Below are positions 1 to 48,565 of a stretch of DNA of 64,000 nt, piece after piece. Each line of letters starts with the position of its first letter. Positions within the stretch are counted from its first letter, which is position 1. A program made the translations under genes and the position numbers. The notes below the pieces were generated by a model. The model was not told where the DNA came from and made no database searches. It worked only from the letters and a program-made list of their open reading frames with translations. Source of the stretch: Sialis fuliginosa (lineage: Eukaryota; Arthropoda; Insecta; Megaloptera; Sialidae). The DNA is taken from NCBI GenBank assembly GCA_961205875.1, contig OY540809.1, forward strand, positions 16,442,267 to 16,506,266. Reading direction: 5' to 3'.

Positions 1-2353
1 CTTGTATAACAGAACTCGAACTATGACTTTTCATAAAGTTTATTTATTTCGTAACCTATTTGTTTTATTTTTTAGTAAACATATGTAACAATGAATTTCT
101 GTTATTAAAAATTTTATTAGTTTTGAATAAACATTAACTAGGTATAAGATGCTATATTGTATGATAGTTAATCAAAAACTGTTGTTTTTTTGTTGTCAGG
201 AACCTGCTAAATTTTATTTAAGAAAATTATACGAGTATCTCGCCAATTGGTTAATATAAAAATAAATGTAACAAAATCACAAACGTTTTTCGATATGTGC
301 TTTGTGTGGGTTGATACATTAGTGCATAACAAAGTCCATATATAATCAACATATATTGTCATTATATCCAAAAATATCAGTGAAAAATCACTTGAAAATT
401 TGACTTTCATTGTTATTAATTTTAAGTTAGCGGCTAGAAAATATCAATATTTTATTCATATTGTATGTGGTTTATTTTACTGCTCCCAATCATTCTACGA
501 TGTCGTAAAAATATCACTCAATCACAGCAAATCGAGTATAAAAAATCGTTTCAAAAAAACTATATCTATCTACATATAATTTTCTAAAATCACGTTGAAA
601 AAAGTTTCAGAACATTCACAAAAATAACAATGTCTAAAAAAATTCACAAAGAAAATTAGTTCGAAAATCTGATATAAATTGATGAAAAACTTAAAATAAA
701 ACAAGCAGTGGGTTCGATCCTTGAGATCCACTTTATCAACATGGTATGACTATAAATACTTGAATACTGATTATTTATAGTTTCCATATATACCTAGTTT
801 ATGCGAATAATTTATTTTTAATATTATATGACAATTTTTAATAGAATTTGTCAGAAATAAAACTCACCTTTGTAATATGAATATTATTTCTAATATCCTA
901 TAATGTCAATAATTAATACACATTTTTAAAATAACTAATGACAATTTAATTACATTTTTTTCCGAAAGAACAGGAATTAGTAGACGTATTTATTAGTATT
1001 TAAAAATCAAATTTTAAGGGTGGTTTTCACCCCTTCAGTGGCTGTTTAGGCACGTATAACAAAAAAAATACTGAAATACATGTTTCATTATTTGTATTGT
1101 AGAATATTTATTATTTTTCCTTTAAACAATGTTTCTAATTTCAACTTTTTTATTTCTATTTGTATATTTTTTATTTTCTACTTGTATATTTAATTGACTT
1201 GTTTTATACTGTAATATCAGCTACAATTAAAATAAAACTTATATCTATCTATCTAAGTTTCAAGTAAATCTGACCAAAAAAATTTTTTACCCACACAAAC
1301 TTTTACACTCCCTTTTAGCACCGTAAGAGTTGAATTTCGAAAAATCCTTTCTTTCAGATCATATTCATATCAAAACGCTTTGATTGGCACCCCAACGATA
1401 AGTCAATAACTTTATTTACGAGATTTCGTGCAGGAAAAAAAATGACACGCACACTATAATGCCCTTGAAACATAAAAATGTTAAAAAAAATTCTTTCGAT
1501 TTTCGGACCGATTCCTGTTGAGAAGTTAATAAGTTTGTTTTTGATTGAAAAATTGAAATCTTGTTAAACGAAAATTGTAATAATAACAAAACGTTTACAT
1601 ATGCATTTAAATTCCTTTAATTGTCGCAGCTTTCATTTGATACCCCACTCACCGAGACGGGGAATTCCTGAATTTGCATGAAAATCGCACCGTGTAACTT
1701 CAAATCCGCGTAAAAAAAGACTCTACGGTATTTAGTTTATGAAAAGTAGAATTATTATTTATAATGAAAAGCATTACGTCTATTTCCTTGTTTTAGTAGA
1801 ACATTGTATAATATATACATATAAAAGTTAAGCAGAAGTGACTCTATTGACGGCTCTCCCAATTAGTGCATAGGGAAACAAAGTATACTCTGACATGATT
1901 GACTTTTTAATTGGCTCTTTTGAAAAACGTGAACAGCTACAGAAAACAACAGATTTTCATTGAATAAAAATTAAAACTTTTAATGATCATATCTTCATAG
2001 AAAAAATACATAACACAAATGTTGATTTTATATTAACTTTTACCGTATATACTTTGTTTTAATTGGCATTCTTTAATTAATCATATCCAAAGAAGTATTA
2101 ATTATTTTTTTAAATGTTTTATTTTACGATATAATTGGTAAATTTTATTATAATTAATTTTTTATCGATATTTTATTTAGTTGAATAATTGCGAGTAATA
2201 AAAATTATTTGAAAAACAAAAAAGTAATGCTTTTTATGAAATTATACAGTATAACTTCTATATATTGAATCTTATCTCATACATTTTTTATGATAAATGT
2301 GTCCTTCATTTTGTGATAAGTATCTACTAAAAAGGTTGTAACTATTAAAAAAA
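1..2353. other. AT-rich intergenic DNA
   Basis: No supportable gene. The only open frames are short and lack any recognisable motif. About 1256-1740 has wording typical of old interspersed insect repeats (stretches such as TTTCAAGTAAATCTGACC and CATTTGATACCCCACTC), but I could not find a second full copy here, so I leave it unclassified. A GGTTCGATCC word at about 710 resembles a tRNA B box but has no tRNA around it. Confidence 0.6.
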
Positions 2354-3082
2354 CATGCGCCAAGTAAATGCACAGTGCTTCCTCGTGCTAAATTCAGCAA
2401 AGGTAGTTAATTATTGATCAATTTAAATAAAAACCGATAAAGTGTTCAGATAAATTGCCTGGCATTGGTTAACCATTAATTTTTTTTACAATTTTACTAA
2501 AAAATATTAGTTAGAAATTTTTCTTAAGATGCACCTGATTATTTTTTCGTATATTTTTAATTATTTGACAGTTTCAATCTAAATATATGCAAACGTCAAA
2601 ATGTCAGAAAATATCAATTTAAAACAAAAAAACACGATTTTTAAAAGCAAATTGATATTTATAAATCTTTGTAAGGGAATATTTTACAATAAACGTTGTA
2701 GACTAATATTATAGGAAATTGAATGCTCTACAAAAAAGATTCTATAAAATTTTCACGTAGCTTGTGTCGTTCTTGATAAATATTGAAAACATAAATATTT
2801 TGGGATGTCACCCTTCCCTCTTACACACGATTTTGATCATTTGAAACCGTCCTCAAGTCAGACGCAACTATCCAACCAAGTTTCATTAAAATCGGTTTAG
2901 TGGTTATGCGTGTAACAAGGATTCACTCGACAGACAGACACGAAACGAAAAGTGTTTGTCTGGACCTGAAACGGAAAGATCAATTTAAAATTTTGAAATC
3001 GGAGAACAATTTTTTTGTGTCATTCTAAAACGATCACAAAGATTATCGTATCTTCGATATTACGAGGAAGCAAAATAATTGT
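2354..3082 (+). repeat. Interspersed repeat family D, copy 1
   Basis: This is the longest plus-strand copy of a family also present at 30944-31508 (plus) and 39352-40212 (minus). Shared landmarks are GCCAAGTAAATGCACAGTGC at one end, a middle with CAAGTTTCATTAAAATCGG followed by GACAGACAGACACGAAACG, and GAGGAAGCAAAA at the other end. The ends carry short inverted words (GCTTCCTCG and CGAGGAAGC). No coding capacity is visible. The superfamily is unknown; it may be a non-autonomous DNA transposon. Confidence 0.7.
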
Positions 3083-3605
3083 AATCATTTTAAATATTTA
3101 TAATTCATAAAACTAGATGATTTAACGCACATTTTAAAATAATTCCGAAGTATGTGTGTGGTTTATAATTGCAGAGTACTATGTAATCAAATTATATACA
3201 TTTTTTAAATTTGTAAAATAAAACATTTTTCCTTTGTTGCTATTTACGTCAATCATTTTGGCTTCTGAGGATATAAATAAATCTAACTATCTGTTAAAAC
3301 ATAATTATCAAAGTCAATTAAGTAAAGTTATGTCGCTGAGACATTTTAAAACGTTTTTTCGAGATACGCGATTTGCTTTTGACAAAACGAACGCTCTCAA
3401 ATATGTGAAGAATTTTAACTAGTATTTAAAATTAGTAAATACATCATTAATAACAGCGTACTTTGGAAGTGACACCGGGACTCGAATCCAGATGTCTTAG
3501 ATATGCGTGTATCTATAACATATATTACTTTAAAACATCTGTACGATTCCTTTTCAATATTTATAAATAATATTAATCTGTAACTAATCTTCAATATATC
3601 ATTAT
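3083..3605. other. Intergenic, unassigned
   Basis: A 62-codon open frame at 3234-3422 has no family motif, no splice context and AT-driven composition, so I do not call it a gene. On the minus strand about 3466-3490 reads GGATTCGAGTCCCGG, a good tRNA T-arm/B-box word, but no D arm or acceptor stem is recognisable, so it is at most a tRNA-derived SINE relic. Confidence 0.4.
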
Positions 3606-4075
3606 GTGAGGTACTGACACCAGTCTTGGCCGCTTTAAGAGCAAGGTATACTGTTTTGTAATTCTCATGAACTCATGTTACTAATAAAACAAGTACCTCT
3701 TTACTAAATCAATTTAATTGCCAATGTCTGCAAATATAGTTTGTTTTTTAAATCATATCCTTTTATTTTATTTATGTTTTTTCTTCAGTAATAAGCACCC
3801 AGTGACGGTCACTTGCTAAAGATTACAAAATGATAAGTACAAAGACACAAAAGTTAAAAAATCGTAAAATTTGAAACAATGTAAAGCAGATGTTATAATA
3901 ATATAATAATTAATAAATAGATAATTACTTTAAATATCCACCATTTTAATTGTTATCAAATTAATCTGTTTTAGAGTTAAGTGTGTATAGATTATGATTC
4001 AGTAATGGCAGTATTCAAATATCAACAATATTTCTAATTTTATAATAGTATGATCCAAGACTTGATTATATGTTA
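3606..4075 (+). mobile_element. TA-MITE family A, copy 1 (right end lost)
   Basis: Left end GAGGTACTGACACCAGTCTTGG matches the terminal sequence of the family whose complete copy is 7875-8340. Internal landmarks include GAGCAAGGTATACTG, TTGCCAATGTCTGCAAATAT and TTTAGAGTTAAGTGT. The right end stops at GATCCAAGACTTG and lacks the expected GTGCCAGTACCTTAT. No coding capacity. Confidence 0.8.
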
Positions 4076-4560
4076 GATAAATACAAAAAAATATATTTAA
4101 ATGAATGCAATTGAGTAGGTATAGAGCCATCTATTGACATAAACTTAAACTAAATATCTTCAAATAATGTTTGGTTTATATGTCGACTAGTACTACTAAC
4201 GCCATCTGTGTAAGGGTGGCGTAGTTAATCGCTAGGGTTGGTTTTAAATCGGAAAGCACCATCTCGATTTTATTTCATATTCTAAAAGAGGGCATTGCAA
4301 TTATATAAAACTTGCAACTGTTGAAATTAAAAAAAATAACATATAATTTGACCCACACCCTTATATGAACATGTAAATTATGCCCTAAGGTGTTAAAAAT
4401 TTTCGAAATTTTTTTCAAGGAGGACATTTTAGAACCAAAGCTAGCTAAAAAAATATTTTTTTATACCAAGGTATGTAGCAAGTGACCAAACCAGTAGAAT
4501 TTGACCGTATTTTAATTTTTTTTCATACTGCTGTAAATAATAAAAAAACATTATTATAAA
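4076..4560. other. AT-rich spacer with the left 8-bp target duplication of the next hAT element
   Basis: I see no gene. The last eight bases (4553-4560, ATTATAAA) are duplicated at 5122-5129 and flank the hAT copy that follows. Confidence 0.5.
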
Positions 4561-5121
4561 CAGGAACTTAAACCTGAACCCGAACCCCAACCCTAAACTT
4601 GAAAAAATCCTGTATTTTTCATTAACCTAAACCCGAACCGAACCATTATATTTCAAAGTCAACGAACCTGAACCTGAATCCAAACCTTTTCAGGAATAAC
4701 CGGTAACCATATATTTTTAAAAAGATTCAATAAATTATTTTTAATATTTTTCTCCAATTATTTTTAAAAGAGATTATAAAATGTACTAACTGGAAATCTT
4801 GGTATGATGTGAGTTATCAAGTCCACTACTAAAATTTACATCATTTTTACTTTTTTCTTAAATTCTATAACTGAACTATATTTCAATTTGCAAAAAAAAA
4901 AATGATTTTTTTCTAGTAATATTTTATAGGCTATTGATGTGTTTTCTTCTTCATAAAATGTTTTATTTGTTAATTATATTCTTTTTTAAACAAAATAATT
5001 TTCTTTCAATTACAAACTTGAACCCGAATCCGAATCATTAAAAAAATAATGGTTTTTTAACCCAAATAGCTAAACCTAAACCCGAACTCGAACCATAAAT
5101 AAATTCCGGTTCAAGTCTCTA
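4561..5121. mobile_element. Non-autonomous hAT (Ac-like ends)
   Basis: A 561-bp element flanked by a perfect 8-bp duplication ATTATAAA (4553-4560 and 5122-5129), the hallmark of hAT insertion. Its ends, CAGGAACTTAAACC on the left and, inverted, TAGAGACTTGAACC on the right, agree at most positions. Near both ends the motif GAACCCGAACC and variants repeat in the same orientation (about 4570-4690 and 5015-5095), resembling the clustered subterminal sites that hAT transposases bind. The centre is AT-rich with no open frame, so it must be mobilised in trans. Confidence 0.85.
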
Positions 5122-5129
5122 ATTATAAA

Positions 5130-7170
5130 TATATTTAATTAAATAAAAATAATAATAAAAATCTATGCTTAACTATTCTAGCTAATGATTTATTAAATTT
5201 AATATAGATCCAATAGAATACTTTTTGTTTAATTTGAACACACAAACATGAATTTGCATAAATTGAAAAGACAAAAGTAAAGCTTGCATGTCCGAGCTTT
5301 TAATATATCTAATGAATATTAGTAATTCCGTCGTTGTTGTCGCACGTAATACAATTTATGAAAGCTGTTTTGTGTTTTAAAGGTGTGGGCTTCCTCAAGA
5401 TTAATCACCAAAGGTGCTTTTTAAATGGCCACAACATCTGTTTATTCTAACGGTGACGTGAATTGATGCGATTAACTCCAACAAACGAACCATTTAACTA
5501 AAAACTGCTCAAATTAATAGTCTTCGTGACTTTATTACCCTAAATTTAAAACATACCAATGTTTGTACTTCTATTTTTTAAATGAAATTAATCCTTTTAA
5601 TGTCCTTTAATGAAAATTATTTGCATGGGTATTTTTTTAATATTTTAAGACACATTTGTGAATTTTTTTCATAATTATAAAATAACATCTACTGTTTAAA
5701 AATGTTTCTATTAAAATTCAATATATTCGATATCCGAAAGTAGATTTTTTTAATATCTAATATGAAATTTTTTGAGTCTGCGCGTTGTATATTTATAGTT
5801 TTTATAATTTTTACTGATTTTGATGAGACTTTCACTAATCGAAATCCTAAGACCCTAGAGTACATACTAGGATTTAATTAGAGCAGATCAATATAAAGGA
5901 AGTTGTTATATGAACCAAATCCGCAAGATTAAATTCTAATAATTGTTTTTATTTATATTATAGATTAATGTTATTGAAATTGAATTCTATTTATTTTTTT
6001 TTATTTTTACCTCGTCGTTATGAAAATATAAAATTTTGAACATTGTCATTTTAGTATGGCCAGTATAGTGAAACGAAACGCGTTGATGCTTAACATAGAA
6101 TAAAGATACTTTTCTAACCAAGTTTAATTTTCGAAAAATAGTTTAAGTACCTACGAAAACGATTGCCGTCATATCAATATAATTTTAAACACTTATCGCA
6201 TCGTTTTTTTGTAATAATTAATTTTTGGTAACCGAATCACAAACGATTATTACTAAAATCGTTATAAGTTTTGGCAACGTTGTTCGATTTTTATTTGTAT
6301 GTGAATATATAGGTACGTGTAAACCTACACTATCTGTATAGTGGTTTAAAGATGTGTTAGGAGTTGATCGCAAAATTTTATAAGAATATACAGTAAATCA
6401 AAATAAAAAAATATTTTTAACTGAAAAATTTATGTTGGTACCACTTTGGTACTAAAGTCAAATGAGCGATTGGGAGCATCATTTATTAAATAATCAAACG
6501 TATTTTAAACAAAAAAAATGCCTAACATGATCTCAATGTACTATTAAATTTTATATACATACATCAAATACAAATATTTTCATGCTTATATTAATTTTAT
6601 CATAAATACTTACACTACATATTTACATAAATACTAGAACAACCTCCTTAAATAAATTTTATAATTGATATTTTTAAATTAAATATATACATATACAAAT
6701 GAAAATGCTTTAATTTTGAAATAAACGCAATGTTTTTCTAGTTTCTAAACAAATTAATTTAAAATACATAAACCATATTTAACAAGATGATTCATGGCTT
6801 CTGAGTGTAAGCCGCGTCTTAAAGTCATGAAATAAAATTTTTATAATTGTTATTATCTAATTATGCAGAACTGAATAGGTAAAGTATCATGTAGGTAATT
6901 TAATCGGAAATGCTGAGAGCCCTTGCGTGACTGAACTCTCCTGATACCCCCTTTCCCCCCATCCTTCTAACTCTGAGTATTAATGTGTCCCACTCGAAAA
7001 TTTAATTGCGAAAACATATGACTGCTCACGCGGCAGATTGCCATCGTATTTTATCCTCAAACATCGCGGAATTAAATTTAAAAAAAAACTACACTTGATA
7101 AGTATGTAACATATTATCACTCAGTACACGAATAATAAGTCATGAAAAAACACTATATTTAATTGTTAAT
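5130..7170. other. AT-rich intergenic DNA
   Basis: No gene is supportable. A fragment at about 6795-6825 (GGCTTCTGAGTGTAAGCCGCG) belongs to the CTTGGCTTCTGGG repeat family whose best copy is 39862-40010. The rest is simple AT-rich sequence with scattered polyA/polyT runs. Confidence 0.5.
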
Positions 7171-7770
7171 TTTGTTTTGTTTCCTTCGAGGTTTTAGGTC
7201 ATTAAAACAGTTATACGAGCTATAACATTATTTATTTAAACGTTTCGTCATTTTAGACTTCTTCAGTAACTACAAAAACACATTTCTAAAATTAAAATTA
7301 AAAACTAAACAGCTAACAGGACAATATTTTAAATTTTAAATGTTAAAATTATAAAATTACGTAAATTACAGACTAAAAATCTAACTAGACAATATTTTTT
7401 AAAAAATTTTTAAATGTTAAAATTATAAAATTACAGTTATATAATACAGATTTTTTTTATAATTATATGAAATAAACAGTCACAATATAATAAAACTTAT
7501 CATGCAAAATAATTTAAATAAAAATCCAAAATACAACTTTTAGAATAAAAATAAACATATAAAAACTTACATGAAAAAGAAAAACAAAACAATCTACTAA
7601 TTAGAAAACAATCATACATTATAGTACAACAATCAGATAATTTTCAGCATTTCTCATGTAGTTCATGTAGTTACTGAAGAAGTCTAAAATGACGAAACGT
7701 TTAAATAAATAATGTTATAGCTCGTATAACTGTTTTAATGACCTAAAACCTCGAAGGAAACAAAACAAAA
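7171..7770. mobile_element. Penelope-like inverted-repeat remnant with hammerhead-like cores
   Basis: Two near-perfect inverted arms of about 103 bp (7171-7273 and 7667-7770) flank a coding-less AT-rich middle. In the right arm the core words CTGAAGA (7674-7680) and GAAAC (7694-7698) are separated by a short GTC/GAC stem, matching the conserved core of hammerhead ribozymes; the left arm has the same words on the minus strand (7260-7266 and 7242-7246). Penelope-like retroelements are known to carry hammerheads in terminal repeats that may be inverted. The arms also hold a hairpin GTTATA-loop-TATAAC. A sister copy is at 53974-54243. An extra base after CTGAAGA departs from the minimal consensus, so catalytic activity is uncertain. 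Confidence 0.6.
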
Positions 7771-7874
7771 TTAAATCTAAAATGGTCATTTTCTTAAATT
7801 CTAAATTTAATTGTTAATTAGTGCATACCTTTGGATAATTATTATTAAGTAAATAGTGAATTTTTTAAATAGAT

Positions 7875-8340
7875 ATAAGGTACTGGCATCAGTTTTGGTC
7901 TGTTTAAGAGCAAGGTATACTGTTTTTGGAATTGTTGGGCTTCTTTTTTAAATTTTCATGAACTTATGTAAGTAACTAATAAAACAATTACCTCTTTATT
8001 AAATCAATTTAATTACCAAAGTCCGCAAATATATTTTCTTTATTAAATTATAGCTTTTATTATGTTTATATTTTTTCTCCAGTAATGATAAGTACTACTA
8101 CACAAAAGTTATAAAATAAAGAATCGAAAATTGAAAACAATATATAAAACAGATACTATGATAACATAAAAATTAATAAATAGATAATTAGTTTAAAGGT
8201 CCATTTTGACACCCATTGGCCTATTGTAATCAAATTAAGCTACATTACAGTTAAGTTATAGATTATAATTCAGTAATCAAATATCAACAATTATTTATAA
8301 TTTAGTACGTTATGATCCAAGATTTGTGCCAGTACCTTAT
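7875..8340 (+). mobile_element. TA-MITE family A, copy 2 (complete reference copy)
   Basis: Starts ATAAGGTACTGGCATCAG and ends TTGTGCCAGTACCTTAT, so the termini are inverted repeats built on AGGTACTGGCACCAG, with TA at each border consistent with a TA target duplication. It is 466 bp and has no open frame. Five further copies exist in the window (3606, 23868, 41475/47883, 53312, 54554), which makes this the commonest MITE here. The superfamily is not certain; TA targets are used by Tc1/mariner-like elements among others. Confidence 0.85.
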
Positions 8341-8479
8341 TTTGTAATGTATTTCTATTTATAATTTCATAAAAAAGCTAGTTACGGAGACCACGGAAGT
8401 CTTATAAAGCTGGTCCATGCGATTCCAATTAATATCAACAGTACACAAATAAGCCAATGAAATAGCTTGTAACGATAAA

Positions 8480-8790
8480 TAGCGCTGACTTGTGTGCTCT
8501 ATTGTGCTACAACGTAATTTATAATTTCATAAAAAACGTTCACATGCGACGTGTCGGCCGGCGCGGGCGATGGAGAGATCTAGATAGCTTAAACAGAGCT
8601 TTACTTAATGTGGCCCAGTCACGGCATCTCTTAATTTCTTCCCTTGTCGAACAAAGTGTTAATTTGGCCTAATGGCCTCGCGCTATTGGCCACTCAATTA
8701 TGAATCTATTAGTGTAATTGGTTTAGCTCTTGATCATTCCGCACGCTGGCCAATCAGTGGTCTTGTTACTTAGTAACAATTCGGATTCAC
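8480..8790. promoter_or_regulatory. Candidate conserved regulatory DNA
   Basis: GC content rises sharply and the sequence is not shared with any repeat in the window. It holds TAAT-type homeodomain words (CTCAATTATGAATC, GTGTAATTGG), CCAAT-like words (GGCCAATCAGTGG) and inverted GGCCTAATGGCC. A 60-codon open frame overlaps it but shows no protein-like pattern. Regulatory function is an inference from composition only; an unrecognised exon or old transposon remains possible. Confidence 0.3.
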
Positions 8791-35656: not shown

Positions 35657-36255
35657 CAGTAATCCCTCCATTTAATTGGTTCCATGAAAACGTAAATCGA
35701 CAAATAGAAAGTCGTGTAAAAATATGTACCTATCTTTTATAATTTTTTTTAATAAAAACAGGTTTCTGACAACAATAAATGTTCTTGATTAACTATCATA
35801 AAAAAATATAGCATCTCAGAGGTTATTTTAGTATGTATGTAGTTAAAGCTTGTTTCTGCACTTCTAAAAATGAAAACTACAGTTGTAAAAGCTAATTTGT
35901 GTAGTTGACAAATTGTAAGTAAAAAGAAAAATATAAAAAAGTAAATGTAGAGCAAAAAAAAGATCACTATAATTTGTAAGAAAGAAATATAGAAAGTGTA
36001 GAGCAAAACATCAAAAATAGAAGGTAATGCAGTTGAAAAATTTTCTTAAAATAACCTCTGTAGCATCTTATTGTTAATGTTTATTCAAAATCAATCAATT
36101 TTTAACAGTGGACGGAAATTCACTGTTACATATGTTTTCCATAAATTGACACAAACAGGCTACAAAATAAAAACGCGGTGATGACAACCGGTGTCTAGTA
36201 TTTACATTAGTGAACATATAAAACTTTTTCAACTGCGTAAATGGAGGGATTACCG
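35657..36255. mobile_element. pogo/Tigger-like non-autonomous element
   Basis: 599 bp with termini CAGTAATCCCTCCATTTA and, inverted, CGGTAATCCCTCCATTTA (17 of 18 identical). TA flanks both sides (35655-35656, 36256-36257). CAG-start termini with CCCTC text and a TA duplication are typical of pogo/Tigger relatives. An open frame on the minus strand (35749-36006) is hydrophobic low complexity and shows no DDE transposase motif. Confidence 0.75.
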
Positions 36256-40212: not shown

Positions 40213-41474
40213 TTTTATAACTTTTTATTTAGTTTCCCCAGATTTATAGGGATTTTTAAAACGAACTTAAAATTTTTTTGTTGTATCACGATTTTTTTTT
40301 TCAAAGTTCTGTAATTTGAGTAAAAATGATCGGATTTGATCCATTCAGAGATCGGAATCTCTGCTATTGAAAGATAGTAATTTTCATTCATATTCTTAAA
40401 AATTCACATTCATTGTTAATTACGAGATATATTAATAAATAACTCATTAAAGAAATCATTAACAAATATTCAATAAAATCGATATTTTCTCAACAAAAAT
40501 ATGTTTTTGAATTCGTTAGCTAATCAATCAAATATTAAAAAAAAAAATTTGGATTCTGGGTATAAGCTGCTTACATTTCAATTATTTTTTTATTATAATA
40601 ATAATTTAAATATTTTAGTATGAAATAAGATACATAATAACACTACCCAGAAGCCAAGAATTACTTGAAGTTTAATTCAAGAAATCGAGTGGCCAATGTT
40701 AATAATAATAATAATATGTACAACAATACATCGGGAATTGAACATTTCTGCGAAATAATAAAATGCTGAAATAAGATAAAACGGACAAAACTGGTATCCC
40801 CCGCCGCCACACGGGGGAGATCATTCCTTTTGTGCCGAGTCCATTCTGTTGTCCAACTGATGCGTTATATAGCCTCTAATATCGTTGTCTTTTGTTATTG
40901 GATCATGATTGGGTTTCGCCGGTAAAAGCTCTTCGGAAAGCTCTATTAGCGCTCCTTCTTTACCTCACCCCTCCACCCCCACCCCCAACACACACACATA
41001 AAGCTAAACCGAAGCTCTTTCACATGCGCGCACGACAAATCCTGTTACTAGCGGAGGAACTTTGACCCGCGGCCAGGGGGCGGGAGGGGTGTCTGTAAAA
41101 AAACTCGGAAAAATAAATCAAAGAACGTGTATAAATTGTATAAAAGAGGGGTGCGTATTTTTGTGTATTTTTTTTACTTTGTTGTATTTCTGGGTTTCTG
41201 GATGTAAGTTGTGTCTTGTTTCAGAGAATCAGGTGCCTAAATGATCAACTTGGCAAGAGTAAACATCCGTTTCTGATTGAAAGAACGTTTTCAAAAATAT
41301 TAAGTTTTTCTTTTATTCACAAAATTTAATCCTAAATAAAAAATGTCACCCTTCGCCTTCTAAGTATTGTCATTTTTGAGTTACAGCGTCTACAGACAGA
41401 TAGACATAATGGATTTCGAGAAAGTCAAAATAGATTATCATCAAAATCTCTAATTCGAAAATTATTGGCTATCT
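40213..41474. other. Intergenic; candidate regulatory island 40800-41060
   Basis: About 40800-41060 is GC-richer and unique, with CCATTCTGTTGTCC, GTCTTTTGTTATTGGATCATGATTG (Sox- and homeodomain-like words) and CGGAAAGCTCTATTAG. A (AC)n/C-rich patch lies near 40970-41000. At 40550-40660 two inverted relics of the CTTGGCTTCTGGG family flank AT-rich DNA. About 41262-41420 is a diverged family G copy. No gene. Confidence 0.35.
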
Positions 41475-41539
41475 TGGGTACCCAGTGATGGACAGTTGTT
41501 AATGATTACAAAATTATAAGTATACACTGTTAAAAATTT

Positions 41540-42720
41540 TTGTAAATTTACTACATTTTTACTAAGCAGTTGCTTTGTAAAATTACAAACTCTCGTATTG
41601 TATTGGAATTTTCAAACGCATTCGTAGTAATATTGCAATTTGTAATAACAAGAGTACTAAGCAGGTTGCAATTTTACAAATTTTTTGTATTCGTCAGAAA
41701 CTTGTTGTAATTTTACCATTCAAAGTTGTAGAATTAAATCTAAAGTTTTGTAAAATTTCCATACATATTCGGAATTTAATTTTACCACAATTATCTGTAA
41801 AATTACTAACCAAAATTTGCAATTACAATCTCAAGAAGTGATTGGAAATTTACAAATCATTATTTATTTTTTCAAATTCTGTTTGCATTTTTACAAAAAT
41901 TCATTCAAGTCATGAGCGCTATGTATTTTTACAAGTCTTGTTTGTAATTTTAAGTCTAAAACTTTGTAAAATTTCTACACATATTCGGAATTTAATTTTA
42001 CCACATTTATCTGTAAAATTACTAACCAAAATTTGCAATTACAATCTCAAGAAGTGATTGGAAATTTACAAATTATTATTTATTTTTTCAAATTCTGTTT
42101 GCATTTTTACAAAAATTCATTCAAGTCATGAGCGCTATGTATTTTTACAATTCTTATTTGTAGTTTCAAGTCTAAAACTTTGTAAAATTTCTACACATAT
42201 TCGGATTTTGATTTTACCAAGATTAATAGTAAAATTACTAACCGAAACTTGCAGTTACAATTACAGGAAATTTACAAATCATTACTTTTTTTTTGAAAAT
42301 TCTGTTTGCATTTTTACAAAATTTCTTTCAAGTCATGAGCGCTATGTATTTTTACAATTCTTGTTTATAATTTCAAGTCTAAAATTTTGTAAAATTTCTA
42401 TACCTATTTGTAGTCTAATCTTACTACAGTTATCAAAAAAATGACTAACTGAAATACGTAATCCAAATTGCAAAAAGTGATTGAAAAATTGTAAAACTTT
42501 AATTACTTTAGATTTGTTTATATTTTTACTAGTGTCTCTTACAATCATATAGTTTTATGTAATCTTCTAATTCTGCTGTGTAGTTTCAAGTATAAAACTT
42601 GGTATATTTATTTTGCATTTTTATAAAATTGTGACTTATGCAGATTTAAAATTTAATTTGAATGCAGTTCTAAGTAAAATTAGTAGCAAACATTTATACT
42701 TGAATTGCAAGTATGAAGTA
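41540..42720. repeat. Left subterminal repeat region of the CACTG element
   Basis: Many short direct and inverted copies of TTTGTAAAATTAC and TTTTTACAA. Larger direct repeats of about 215 bp start with GATTGGAAATTTACAAATCA (about 41840, 42056 and a diverged one near 42265) and share TTTTTTCAAATTCTGTTTGC and TCAAGTCATGAGCGCTATGT. The open frames at 41842-42057 and 42058-42444 reflect these repeats and are not proteins. Confidence 0.8.
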
Positions 42721-43290
42721 TAGATTATAAAAAAATATTTTTTTTTTATTAAAATGTTTTAATATACATGTTGTTTCTGAATATGAAATATGTTAGTTTT
42801 ATAAAAAAAACCTCATAGAATCGATCAAGTGTATAAAAAAAATTGTGAAAGAACCGAATTATTCACTGTGGTAAAAAATAGTGATAAAATTTAATTGTAA
42901 GTGTAATAGGGTATGTTCAAATCTGCATATCAACATTTTTTATATTTGAAAGTAAGTAAATCTTTGCTAATTATTATTTATGAATTATATATAAACTGGT
43001 CAAAATGCCTAAAACAACCTTTATAAATGCTCCATATGCCGGTGTAAAACAACCTTTAATTTTATTCGAATTTGCAAGTCCCGACCAGCATAGAAAAAAT
43101 CATTGTTGCGTTTCTTTTGACATGCCGACACAAGTATAGAACAGTGATTCTCAAAGTGTGGGTCGCGACTCCTAGGAAGGTCGCAGAAAAATTGATGACA
43201 TAAACCGAGTTTAGTAAGCAAACAATTATTTTTTACTTGGTGTGAAAACAGTGTCCACTATTCGCTGAATTAACAATGACAGTTCTCTTG

Positions 43291-44705
43291 CCATTTGCAA
43301 CCAACTTATTTATAGGCGAGCGGATTATCGAGTCTAGCTCGCTTAGAAATGACAATAACCGACCAATCGACGTTCTAGTGGCTAAAAATGATTTTATTAA
43401 ATTCTTTATATTTTTCTGAGAAAAAACATCTATATACATGATATTTTTTTATGCGGTCCTTCAATAGGTACACACATTTTTTTGTTTAATAAATCTAAAT
43501 CTGCATTAAAAAATCTGAAAAAATTATGTAAGCTTCATTGGATTAAAATGAACATTTTTTGTCTCATAAACTTTTTTTTAAAATCAATTGTTTTGAAGAT
43601 AAAAAATATTTATACTTTAAAAATAGCGAAAAATTCGTATATTTGTGATTTTTTTTCTCGGAAACTAATTGTTCAATCAAAATAAATCAAAAACAAAAAG
43701 AATCAGCCAACTTTGAACTATAACTATATTTTTTTTCATTTTGATCATTACTGTAATTAAATGTAAAAACTTCATTAGAGCCGAACTCACTCTTTGCGCC
43801 GTAAATCGATACCTTGGCTGGCTACAACATTCATTTAATAATAATTGAAATATTTAAATACTGGGATGAATGCATCAATAAAAACACTTTAGAATATTTT
43901 TATTGCACATTTATTTGTCACGATTATTTTCTTTATTATAATATTATACTTATCAGAACATCTACAAAAAATATTTCTGTTCTTGTTGCGGAAAATTTCC
44001 TTGTACAGCTAAAACATGCTCTTGTTTGGATTTAGATTTAAAATGTTGTTCAGTTTGTAGATGTTTTGATAAGTGTAACAATAAAGAAAATAATTGTAAC
44101 AAATAAATGTGCAATAAAAATATTCTAAAGTGTTTTTATTGAAACTTTCATCCCAGTATTTAAATATTTCAATTATTAAACGAAAATTGTAGCCAGCCAT
44201 GGTATCGATTTACGGCGCAAGGAGTGAGTTCGGCTCTAATGAAGTTTTTACATTTAATTACAGTAATAATCAAAATGAAAAAAAATCTAATTATAGTTTA
44301 AAGTTGGCTGATTCTTTTTGTTTATGTTTTATTCTGATTGAACAATTAGTTACCGAGAAAAAAATTCACAAATATACGAATTTTTCGCTATTTTTAAAGT
44401 TAAAATATTTTTTATCTTCAAAACTATAGCTTTAAAAAAAAAGTTTATGAGACAAAAAATGTTTATTTTAATCCAATGAAGCTTACATAATTTTTTCAGA
44501 TTTTTTAATGCAGATTTAGATTTATTAAACAAAAAAATGTGTGTATCTATTGAAGGACCGCATAAAAAAATATCATGTATATAGATGTTTTTTCTCAGAA
44601 AAATATAAAGAATTTAATAAAATCATTTTTAGCCACTAGAACGTCGATTGGTTGGTTAGTGTACTCGAAATAGCTGTAATCCGCTCGCCCTATTATACGA
44701 AATGG
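43291..44705. repeat. 650-bp inverted arms inside the hAT element
   Basis: Left arm 43291-43967, right arm 44054-44705, loop 43968-44053. The arms give mirror-image open frames beginning MFNKSKSALKNLKK (43482 plus, 44532 minus) and MAGYN (43814 plus, 44200 minus), which differ by a few substitutions and small indels. The outer 90 bp have diverged most. Neither frame resembles a known protein, and I take them as by-products of the repeat. A transcript would fold into a long hairpin. Confidence 0.85.
43942..44106 (+). CDS. Short Cys-rich open frame at the hairpin loop (CXC-like remnant)
   Basis: An open frame bounded by stops at 43939 and 44104 spans the loop and the start of the right arm. 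It has 12 cysteines within about 40 residues: CSCCGKFPC, KTCSCLDLDLKCCSVCRC, DKCNN. The pattern C-x-C-x(6-7)-CC-x2-C-x-C-x3-C recalls the tesmin/TSO1-type CXC zinc-binding tail found at the C-terminus of some insect transposon proteins. There is no start codon in good context and no upstream coding part, so this is probably the last piece of a lost ORF. Whether it was the element's own transposase or a captured domain is unknown. Confidence 0.45.
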   Translation, partial: YYTYQNIYKKYFCSCCGKFPCTAKTCSCLDLDLKCCSVCRCFDKCNNKENNCNK

Positions 44706-45441
44706 TATTTTCAGTACTGACCAACATCAAAACAAAGCCGCGCTCACTCATCACATTAAATTTAATTTAAAATATTTTAAGTAAACTCAATTAGTTAGTT
44801 AAGTTAATGTCGAAAAATATACAAATAATATTTTGTTCAAAGATGTACTCGAGATAAGTTATTAACTTGTTATTAATTATTATTGATATTAAATTTCGCT
44901 ATTAATCACAATTATGAGTGATTCAATTCAAAAAGTTTGAGAAATACTGGTATAGAACATAGTTTCATGTGAACGCGCTGGCGGAAGGGGTAAATTTTGT
45001 TACATTTTATTTTCTCACGATGCTAAGCTACTGCGTATGAGCAATAATACGATTTTTGAACAGTCGTTATTAAAAATTTGTTGTGTAAAGATTGATGCTG
45101 CTACAAGTGATTTTTTATAATTCTGTTGTTTAATCCAATAATTGTTTTTAACGTTTATTGAATATATATCTGTTATAATTCAGGTAACTTTTTCACCTAC
45201 TTACATCTTTAAGCTGTAGCCATTTGTCTAAACAAATGATTTTTATTTTTGGAGTTAAAATTTTAAGGCAAAAGAAATATTTTCTTGTTTCAAATAATTT
45301 TTTTCCAAAACTAAGATTTTAATATTTGAAATGTGTAATCAAATTTTGATAAGTGTTTTAAAATTTCACGACAAATAAGTATAACTTCTAACGCGTGTAC
45401 ATAAGTACACATACCCACTTTTTGTTTTGTTTTTTATAGAC

Positions 45442-46840
45442 ATGGATCATAAATATCGTCTTATATTATATTATATTATATATACATGGCTTCATTTTGA
45501 AGAAGATTCTGATAAGGTATATTGCAAATATATGCCAGGCCTGCTTGATGATCCAAATGTATGCGAAGAACTGCAAGAAATGGTGAAAAATTTAGAACCA
45601 CCCAAATCTACATAGCCAACATTTCTAGTGGATATTCGCGGAAGTGCTCGTAAGTAATGATATGTTATTTTAAAATAAATTCTTTACCACAATATTAATT
45701 TTTTTACATTTTATTAATTTTTTATGAGCAAAAAAAATATTTTGACATATTATTAATCAATTTTTTAGATACTTATAAAGAAGCTGAAAATAAAATCGTT
45801 GAGTTAGAAACAAAACCATATGTATACTCGACAGCAAATGAAGAATCTGCAAAAAAAAGCAGATACTGATAAGAAGGCTCTGAAGCGCAAATTTGTTGCA
45901 AAGAATAAAGAGCTCATTAACAAACAATTTAGTCAAGCAGCATTGAAATGGACAGACGATCTTGGTATAAAAATTCGTAAGTAGTTTTAATTTTTTTTGG
46001 TAAAATTTTTTGTTATAAATATGCAACAAATATATTTTTTTAATGTTAGATTCATCTAATCCTAAAAGTCAACACACAAAAAGAAAAAAATTGAATTCTA
46101 AATCGATTTCAATCCCAAGTTGTCACCCATCTGATGACACTGACATTAAGTCAACTTCAACGGAATTTTCCAGTGATGAAGACAACACTAACGGATTAGA
46201 TCCAAACAATATATTAAATCCAAAAAGGATTGTAAAAAAAAAAGCTGAAGAAAAACTCGAGACCAGTGCAAATCAACCAATGACAATAGGTAAAAACATA
46301 CATCGTTTTTTTTTTTTTTAATGTGTATTGGAAACGTGATTTTTTTTGTTACAGAAGATCTGCATCAATTCATATCGAGCTGTTTTGTAAGCATCGGCAA
46401 ACGTTTGTCAAATTTAGGAAGTCAATTAACCAATTATTCAACCAGATTACAAAGCCTTGAAAATGTCATTGAAAAACTTCATAATTCAACAAGCATTTTG
46501 AGTGACGAAATCAGTAACTCTGAGAGTGAATTTGACATGATTCTTCCACTACAAAATGAAGAAAGTTTTATTAAATTTAATGATAAAATTAAAAATGATG
46601 TTGATTTTAAAAAAAAATTGGTAAGTAATCACAAATAAAATTATTATTTTTTTATATAAGCCCTATTTTATATAATTCGTTTATAAGACATGAATAATAA
46701 TTTTCTTTTTTTAGATTTACAAATTGTTATGCTAAATAAACAAGACAGTAGATATAACCAAGAATATTGGAAAGATACTCCGTGCCTACATTACTCGTGA
46801 TTTGGCAATTAATTATGTGGCAATCAAAACGTCAGAATAA
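45442..46840 (+). pseudogene. Five-exon passenger gene with DUF4806-like C-terminus, inactivated
   Basis: Exons by splice sites and frame: 45442-45649, 45769-45976, 46050-46289, 46355-46620, 46715-46840; all introns are GT..AG, most with GTAAGT donors. Phases agree across every junction once one base of an A8 run (45851-45858) is discounted. Exon 1 gives an acidic stretch (WLHFEEDSDK) and NLEPP; exon 2 is Lys/Glu-rich; exon 3 is Ser/Asp/Lys-rich and low complexity; exon 4 has a coiled-coil-like segment then LPLQNEESFIKFNDKI and DFKKKLV, the beginning of the DUF4806 domain; exon 5 supplies KILRAYITRDLAINY, matching its end. In-frame stops at 45613 and 46733 and the frameshift make this copy dead. 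DUF4806 proteins are numerous in insects; their function is unknown to me. It lies entirely within the CACTG element, so it is transposon cargo or an accessory ORF. Confidence 0.65.
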
Positions 46841-47039
46841 TCTTCAAAAAAAATTTAAAATTTGTGTTAGCATTAAATTATGTTATTATTTTCATAATAT
46901 AAATTATTGATAACACTGTTATAATTAATGACATATGTTTAATTGTTAATTAAATAATTAATAAATTAATATTTAATAAATATTTTATATTTAACACTAA
47001 AATACGCTGTTGTAGCATTCATTGATTTAACAATTTTTT

Positions 47040-47880
47040 TCAGTAAAATTACAGTCTGATATTGAAATAAAGCTATGCAAGTTATATCCCGATGCATAGT
47101 AATATTGCAACGAGCGGTTTGTATTTTTTTCAAATTGACTTGATGTAAGTTGGGTAGTAAAAATTCAATACTGCAACAAATAGTTTGTAATTTTTCGAAA
47201 CTAAATTGGTATTAGTTGGGTTGAAAAATTACGATATATGGTTGTAAAATTACTAAATGTATTTAATCTAATTTGTTTAGTAAAATTCCGACTATTGTAT
47301 TGTAATATTACTAAACAATTTTTTAATAAAGGTTAGTAATATTGCAACAAATAGTTTGTAATTTTTCTAAACTAAATTGGTATAAATTGTCTAGTATAAT
47401 TACAATAAATTTTTGTAAAATTACTAAAATTATTAGAAACATTTGGCTTAGTAAAATTACGAATAATGTACAGTAATATTACTAAACATAAGTCTAGTAA
47501 ATGATTAGTAATTTTGCGACAGATGATTTGTAATAGTTTAAAATTGAGTTGTGATAAATTGTATAGTAAATTTACAAAACTGTGTTCCATAATTCCGAAA
47601 ATTGTGGTGCGTAAAAACTTCCTACACATTTTTGTAAAATTACTAAAATTATTAGAAACATTTGGCTTAGTAAAATTACGAATAATGTACAGTAATATTA
47701 CTAAACATAAGTCTAGTAAATGATTAGTAATTTTGCGACAGATGATTTGTAATAGTTTAAAATTGAGTTGTGATAAATTGTATAGTAAATTTACAAAACT
47801 GTGTTCCATAATTCCGAAAATTGTGGTGCGTAAAAACTTCCTACACATTTTTGTAAAATTACTAAAAAAATTTTTAACAG
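47040..47880. repeat. Right subterminal repeat region of the CACTG element
   Basis: Rich in TTGTAAAATTACTAAA and GTAATATTACTAAAC words, mirroring the left flank. Includes an identical 219-bp tandem duplication at 47411-47848. The 158-residue minus-strand frame at 47372-47848 is produced by that duplication and is not a protein. Confidence 0.8.
47411..47848. repeat. Two identical 219-bp tandem units
   Basis: TTTTGTAAAATTACTAAAAT recurs at 47411 and 47630 and its start again at 47849. The two 219-bp units appear identical base for base, pointing to a very recent duplication or to a correction/assembly effect. Confidence 0.85.
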
Positions 47881-48365
47881 TGTACTACGACACAAAAGTT
47901 ATGAAATAAAGAATCGTAAAATTAGAAACAATGTAAAACAGATGCTATGATAATATAATAATTAATAAATAGATTACAGTAATAATTACTTTCCACCATT
48001 TTGACATCCATTGGTCGATTGTTATCAAATTAAGCTGTTTTACAGTGAAATGTCTATAGATTATGATTCAGTAATGACAGTAATCAAATATCAACACATA
48101 TATTTATAATTTAACAAAATTCCAACACTGGGGTATTATCCAAGACTGGTGCCAGTACCTTATATCATTTTTCAAGTTGTGAATCTATCTATAAGAAACA
48201 ACATTACAAGAATTGCAAATTACTATTTTTATATTGCTATAATATAACCTCAAAAATATGATTATACAATCATAAAAAGCTCCCCGTCCCCCTTTCAGAC
48301 ATTAAAATGATCCTTGAAAATATATCAACAAAAAAAAAGTAGAAACCAAATGACACAACATAATT

Positions 48366-48565
48366 TCTAACATCTGAATGAAATGGGCCAATAAAGAGAG
48401 ACCAGCATTACACTGTTTATATTACACACAGCGTCATAATACAAACGTCGAAATGTCATTAGATTTACTCCGGCCAACCCCTGAGGGGGTGTTAATTCAA
48501 GGGGCGCCAGCCCGAGAGGTGTTAACTTTAATATACCGGATAATAGCTTTCTTCTTTCTGTTTGT
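48366..48565. promoter_or_regulatory. Candidate conserved regulatory DNA
   Basis: GC-richer unique DNA with GGGCCAATAAAGAG, TACTCCGGCCAACCCC and GAGGTGTTAACTTTAAT (T-box and homeodomain-like words). Overlapping open frames on both strands look accidental. Confidence 0.3.

Follow-up and report, generated by a model that had tools for sequence, protein, structure and literature searches.

How does a DNA transposon without a recognisable transposase come to spread a five-exon gene through a genome? The question is raised by an element at 41525-47882 of a 64,000-nucleotide stretch of the Sialis fuliginosa genome (contig OY540809.1 of assembly GCA_961205875.1, positions 16,442,267 to 16,506,266 of the forward strand; hereafter the window). 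An earlier note, made from the letters of the window, had described a CACTG-ended transposon with subterminal repeats, whose only recognisable cargo was a gene with a DUF4806-like end, and had offered two explanations: either a host-type gene is being spread by a transposon lineage, or an accessory open reading frame of a transposon has been mistaken for a host family. Our analysis argues for the second. We consider it fairly likely that the element is a non-autonomous CMC/EnSpm-like transposon, which has lost its transposase and kept a TNPA-like accessory gene. The assignment to the CMC type draws on its CACTG ends, a 2-bp target duplication in 20 of 20 copies and motif repeats confined to both ends, while the accessory reading of the gene is suggested by a pair of EnSpm-type transposase and DUF4806 gene in the same genome, the order and strand of which are kept in a second copy.

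Termini, repeats and copies of the element

The interval was confirmed as a DNA transposon. In the window, the terminus CACTGTTAAAAATTTTT is found exactly, and inverted, at both ends, and the genome-wide search that the earlier note had called for (392 Mb, 20 contigs) returned 83 forward and 82 reverse exact matches, whereas the reversed control pattern gave 1 and 0. For closer reading, the window copy and 20 fetched stretches gave 21 loci, 20 of which have paired ends; L025, with a 3.5-kb insert, yielded no pair and is left out of the end counts, and L014 (2.2-kb insert) is counted for ends and duplications and is absent from the alignment of 19 copies. The perfect 17-bp termini noted earlier hold for the window copy but not for the family: an exact right end is the minority state (6 of 20 copies), and five of these six copies had been chosen for fetching because both their ends were exact. 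Similarly, TA borders are present in the window and in 16 of the 20 copies, but three copies are flanked by TG and one by AA. The flanking dinucleotides match in every copy and agreement over 3 bp occurs in none of the 20; given the TG and AA flanks, this is a genuine 2-bp target duplication and more than mere TA borders. Inverted termini starting with CAC and a short target duplication (2-4 bp) are both expected of CMC/EnSpm-like elements.

The repeat blocks at the two ends are built around the motif GTAAAATTAC. Allowing one mismatch, the motif or its complement occurs 37 times in the element, always within the outer 2 kb, and is absent from the 4.3 kb between the end blocks. Dinucleotide shuffling of each block (300 times) gave on average 0.49 motifs on the left and 0.42 on the right, with maxima of 4 and 3, and the window outside 41001-48500 contains 0.09 motifs per kb. 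The element thus has the repeated subterminal motifs of CACTA-type transposons.

Several known systems resemble it in part. According to the available parts of PMC2613891, plant En/Spm requires the transposase TNPD and a second protein, TNPA, which binds the subterminal repeats; from one CACTA element to another, the TNPA-like proteins have little sequence in common, and TNPD and TNPA can act in trans on defective elements. The dSpm/TNPA-TNPD system is similar to the window element in its CACT-type ends, its dense subterminal repeats and this action in trans, and the full plant system, comprising one DDE protein and one multi-exon DNA-binding accessory protein, is comparable to the ancestor proposed below (PMC2613891). 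It differs in the 3-bp duplication of the case described there (2 bp here), and the window gene is DUF4806-like rather than TNPA, with DNA binding predicted, and dead, in an element with no detected transposase. Among CMC elements of Cryptococcus, CNIRT6 shares the CACTG-starting ends and CNEST the 2-bp TA duplications; unlike the window element, both encode a transposase, and no DUF4806 gene is mentioned for either in the available excerpts (PMC12810828). Animal Chapaev elements, also of the CMC group, have CAC...GTG ends. However, their duplications span 3-4 bp, with TWA in Chapaev3, in the part of PMC4079192 at hand, as opposed to 2 bp and no 3-bp agreement here.

Could the element instead be a member of a different cut-and-paste superfamily, with nothing in common but CAC ends and a 2-bp duplication, and with the transposase-DUF4806 pair unrelated to its mobilisation? 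No transposase was detected in the element, none was found with its ends or repeats, and the PF02992 proteins of the genome have no such ends nearby, all of which would fit. Yet CACTG ends and 2-bp TA duplications are both known from CMC elements (PMC12810828, in part), CACTA elements typically have dense subterminal repeats (PMC2613891, in part), and the cargo gene is of the same kind as a gene adjoining an EnSpm-type transposase, so that we regard this alternative as quite improbable.

The family, of about 165 copies, is one recent burst, and its copies are mostly full length. Among the 19 aligned copies (6260-6532 bp), divergence from the majority sequence is 0.03-0.27%, with a mean of 0.13%, and pairs of copies differ on average by 0.24%. 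In searches with exons of the cargo gene, candidate places numbered 169 for exon 4, 166 for exon 1 and 165 for exon 5; 150 hits were scored for each exon, with identities of 97-100% (98-100% for exon 4). When 100 listed termini were matched to the exon-4 places on C1-C5, 84 proved to be left ends, which have exon 4 at a distance of 4.55-5.66 kb except for a single one at 8.2 kb; six were right ends and ten stayed unpaired. Three of the latter (L014, L026 and L028) had already been read as full copies, and six open with the left sequence of the element and have exon-1 or exon-5 matches 4-8 kb inward, L046 and L049 being rearranged. The tenth, L045, was rejected as a copy: it is unrelated DNA, which we take to be a chance match. 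Recurrent small length changes common to subsets of copies were seen in the A-runs at ~45845 and ~46235 and in a hairpin stem at 43438-43504, and such shared changes could sort the ~165 copies into subfamilies. Elsewhere in the window, two CACTGTTA-type sequences stand back to back at 36094-36137, separated by 10 bp and without a surrounding repeat block; they are probably a chance occurrence or a decayed remnant.

The cargo gene and the nested insertion

As had been described, the cargo gene has five coding exons, and its C-terminus does resemble DUF4806; the exons have GT-AG borders and consistent splice phases (Table 1). Spliced and with X at the stop, the C-terminal part matches the Pfam family (PF16064) at E 1.9e-4 and 22.1 bits, and the whole spliced protein at E 0.0076 and 17 bits, relative to a cut-off of 25 bits. 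Weak matches to Baculo_PEP_C (E 0.0091), Latrotoxin_C (E 0.033) and PuR_N (E 0.13), all below cut-off, were set aside, and a homologue search in a large protein set gave none at E<=10 from 1765 candidates. The gene is present in all 20 copies read and stays inside the termini, and no DDE transposase was detected in the element by tblastn with four EnSpm-type transposases (best E 0.85).

What the earlier description lacked are the fixed stops. Each of the 150 scored exon-1 hits (of 166 candidates) has one stop, which is TAG in all rows but one (TAA), and each of the 150 scored exon-5 hits (of 165 candidates) has one TAA, also present in 19 of 19 aligned copies. The A-run of exon 2 varies in length, leaving the frame intact in a single aligned copy. 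Exon 4 has no stop in 150 scored hits, although among the 19 aligned copies a stop is present in one and an indel in a second. The cargo gene is dead in the copies scored. Stops common to the scored copies indicate that the founder already carried them and that gene death preceded amplification, and with a broken gene in the founder, amplification needed no intact gene product from the copies, the proteins acting in trans. The spread of a host-type gene is not supported in the form first suggested: a gene was spread, but one that is broken in every scored copy.

These data also bear on the idea that the transposon is of a new kind, with the DUF4806-like protein as its recombinase. While it is encoded by the sole recognisable gene of the element besides the nested insertion described next, the copies amplified after the gene had been broken, as it is in every one scored, and elsewhere a gene of this kind is found together with a DDE transposase; we therefore consider this idea highly improbable.

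The earlier description also needs correcting in that 1.8 kb of the interval belong to a nested insertion. hAT elements are defined by CAG-type inverted termini and an 8-bp duplication, and the insert at 43142-44949 has both. All 19 aligned copies agree at its left junction and 18 of the 19 at its right junction, the empty-site pattern has no match in the genome at up to three mismatches, and the 3.0-kb spacing to exon 4 that would be expected without the insert is seen at none of the 84 paired left ends. Together, shared junctions, missing empty sites and the lack of short spacings place the hAT insertion already in the founder. The insert is a foldback element with near-perfect hairpin arms of ~0.6 kb (491 and 99 nt, 95% complementary) and a cysteine-rich frame (43942-44106) in the loop region. 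L015 and L017 share a 67-bp deletion in the stem (43438-43504). Carried in the aligned copies, the hairpin is a possible source of double-stranded RNA. The residue spacing of the cysteine-rich frame is, as we take it, like that of a CXC/tesmin domain, and a Pfam search of the frame returned nothing at E<=10. Hairpin and frame were rejected as a leftover of the element's own transposase, as both sit inside the nested insert.

Table 1. Features of the element and its flanks (window positions)
Feature	Position	Strand	Remarks
Whole DNA transposon, 6358 bp	41525..47882	+	exact inverted ends; 19 full copies aligned, 20 end pairs
Left target duplication, TA	41523..41524	.	2-bp agreement, 20/20 copies
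Right target duplication, TA	47883..47884	.	2-bp agreement, 20/20 copies
Left terminus CACTGTTAAAAATTTTT	41525..41541	+	exact
Right terminus, exact inverse of CACTGTTAAAAATTTTT in the window copy	47866..47882	-	1-2 mismatches in 14/20 copies read
Left subterminal block, ~216-bp tandem units	41525..42700	.	18 GTAAAATTAC-type motifs
Right subterminal block, 219-bp and ~171-bp units	47040..47882	.	19 GTAAAATTAC-type motifs
Nested hAT-type insertion, 1808 bp	43142..44949	+	ends CAGTGATTCTCAAA / CAGTATTTCTCAAA; holds large hairpin 43352-44662
hAT target duplication GTATAGAA, left	43134..43141	.	read at insertion flank
hAT target duplication GTATAGAA, right	44950..44957	.	read at insertion flank
Coding exon 1	45440..45649	+	ATG 45442; in-frame TAG 45613-45615; phase-1 donor
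Coding exon 2	45769..45976	+	length-variable A-run; frame broken in 18/19 aligned copies
Coding exon 3	46050..46289	+	length-variable A-run as well
Coding exon 4	46355..46620	+	coiled-coil-like stretch, start of DUF4806-like domain, phase-0 donor
Coding exon 5	46715..46840	+	remainder of DUF4806-like domain; in-frame TAA 46733-46735

A transposase-DUF4806 pair in the same genome

A profile search of the genome with PF02992 (Transposase_21) found two places, L041 and L042. When L041 was used as a tblastn query, 13 matches were obtained, including C13:17827641 (E 1.2e-23), which lies in an open frame of 716 amino acids (aa). At this locus, L051, the EnSpm-type transposase frame occupies 3000-5147; when it is aligned with the two PF02992-positive proteins, the signatures NIDG, CDVPA and FRFEN, for D, D and E, fall in register. 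On the same strand, 190 bp downstream of the transposase frame and just past a splice acceptor, another gene begins at 5341. Its C-terminus is a DUF4806 domain (E 1.9e-8, 34.9 bits), and the gene is apparently intact, judging from the exons read, which are all open and do not include the small middle exons. Compared with DUF4806/BEN-type proteins (PF16064) at large, the L051 gene has the C-terminal domain, with a match above the curated cut-off, and the window gene a DUF4806-like end; the window copy is broken and scores below the cut-off, and the literature, as far as the excerpts go, treats the family as host genes or lists it in a domain table.

The window gene and the L051 gene are related. 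Their alignment scores 101, the maximum of 500 shuffles being 74, and two introns match in position and phase: one of phase 1 before an (S/T)Y motif and one of phase 0 within the DUF4806 domain. A decayed and truncated copy of the L051 pair is located on C6, with transposase pieces (one containing stops) and, 2.2 kb beyond them, a DUF4806 exon that is 98% identical to L051 over 47 of 54 aa; order and strand are the same, and at the DNA level the identity is 97% over 325 nt, intron included. A ~353-bp repeat at 1915-2267 of L051 has many genome copies at 95-100% identity and represents another young non-autonomous family.

The pair also speaks to whether the cargo gene is a captured host DUF4806 gene, a passenger acquired by transduplication whose spread was unrelated to transposition. 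In favour of this scenario, the copies carry the gene in broken form and can do without it, and the sources available in part list DUF4806 genes elsewhere as host families. However, the only strong DUF4806 places outside the family that were found with the L051 exons, on C13 and C6, both adjoin EnSpm-type transposase sequence, and the window gene has the two intron positions and phases of the transposase-linked gene. The same queries returned no convincing DUF4806 gene away from transposases, the remaining matches being weak (C9, E 0.17; C13:16629173, E 1.9), which is at odds with the host-type gene of the earlier note. A search of the genome with the PF16064 profile found nothing, nor did its controls, and it missed even the intron-split domain of L051. 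On balance, we think host capture unlikely, if the most serious of the alternatives. The other possibility raised in the earlier note, an accessory frame mistaken for a host family, is supported by the L051 gene and its C6 sister.

A number of observations weigh against our reading of the element as a transposon with a TNPA-like gene. We did not find the mobilising transposase, and among the candidates examined no transposase with the ends or repeats of the element was seen. The DUF4806 match of the window gene stays below the curated Pfam cut-off, and we therefore call it DUF4806-like; the N-terminal halves of the window and L051 genes show no significant similarity, with 393 of 500 shuffles scoring as high. 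Moreover, the L051 transposase misses Pfam Transposase_21 (its only match is DUF4218, E 0.12) and its assignment comes from tblastn to L041 and from the alignment. The termini of L051 itself were not identified, its left flank consisting of other repeats without a terminus, and L051 may be a domesticated pair. Finally, the C6 copy, at 97% identity, is not independent of L051.

Other candidates for a mobilising partner were rejected. Neither the termini nor the repeat blocks of the element occur in 9.9 kb around each of L041 and L042. The EnSpm-type transposase frames at L041 (C10), L042 (C14) and C11:624318-626525 are open over 748, 826 and 933 aa, respectively, and could be domesticated. L050 (C14) is a different, CACTA-ended unit (~2042-8709) with long inverted ends and a 727-aa EnSpm/Plavaka-like transposase frame, in which K takes the place of the third acidic residue; an additional multi-exon gene, encoded on the other strand, makes it another two-gene layout. 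L052 consists largely of retroelement coding sequence and contains the remnant of a transposase.

A putative accessory protein and its wider relevance

The ancestor of the element probably carried a DDE transposase gene together with a multi-exon accessory gene encoding a DUF4806 (BEN-like) DNA-binding domain, in a two-gene layout that would have been similar to the pair on C13. By analogy to plant TNPA, the accessory protein may have bound the GTAAAATTAC repeats near both ends, allowing the transposase to bring the ends together; DNA binding is predicted here from the type of domain and the gene layout. The lineage would then have lost the transposase, taken up the hAT insertion and gathered stops in the accessory gene. 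After gene death, it would have been amplified to ~165 copies with proteins made elsewhere, including a transposase presumably supplied by another locus.

More broadly, DUF4806/BEN-type proteins could be the animal counterpart of TNPA, that is, a transposon-encoded family of DNA-binding proteins co-evolving with the subterminal repeats of EnSpm/CMC elements. We put this forward tentatively, as a proposition slightly less likely than not. The literature searched, part of it in excerpts, contains no link between DUF4806 and transposons, which may exist in Repbase or in subscription journals, and nothing was found on BEN domains jointly with EnSpm and transposable elements. Lineage-specific expansions of DUF4806 have been reported from Hydra, zebrafish chromosome 4 and an ambrosia beetle, according to the available parts of these reports. 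If the proposition is true, these expansions would largely be transposon accessory genes or their domesticated descendants, and gene catalogues that score DUF4806 proteins as host expansions may need to be re-read.

The Sialis family is a clean example from nature: ~165 near-identical copies arose from a large non-autonomous element whose accessory gene was dead, with transposase and any helper necessarily acting in trans. The predicted binding of such a protein to the repeats of its own element becomes directly testable. Our findings thereby suggest an origin for DUF4806, a poorly understood and patchily expanded domain family.

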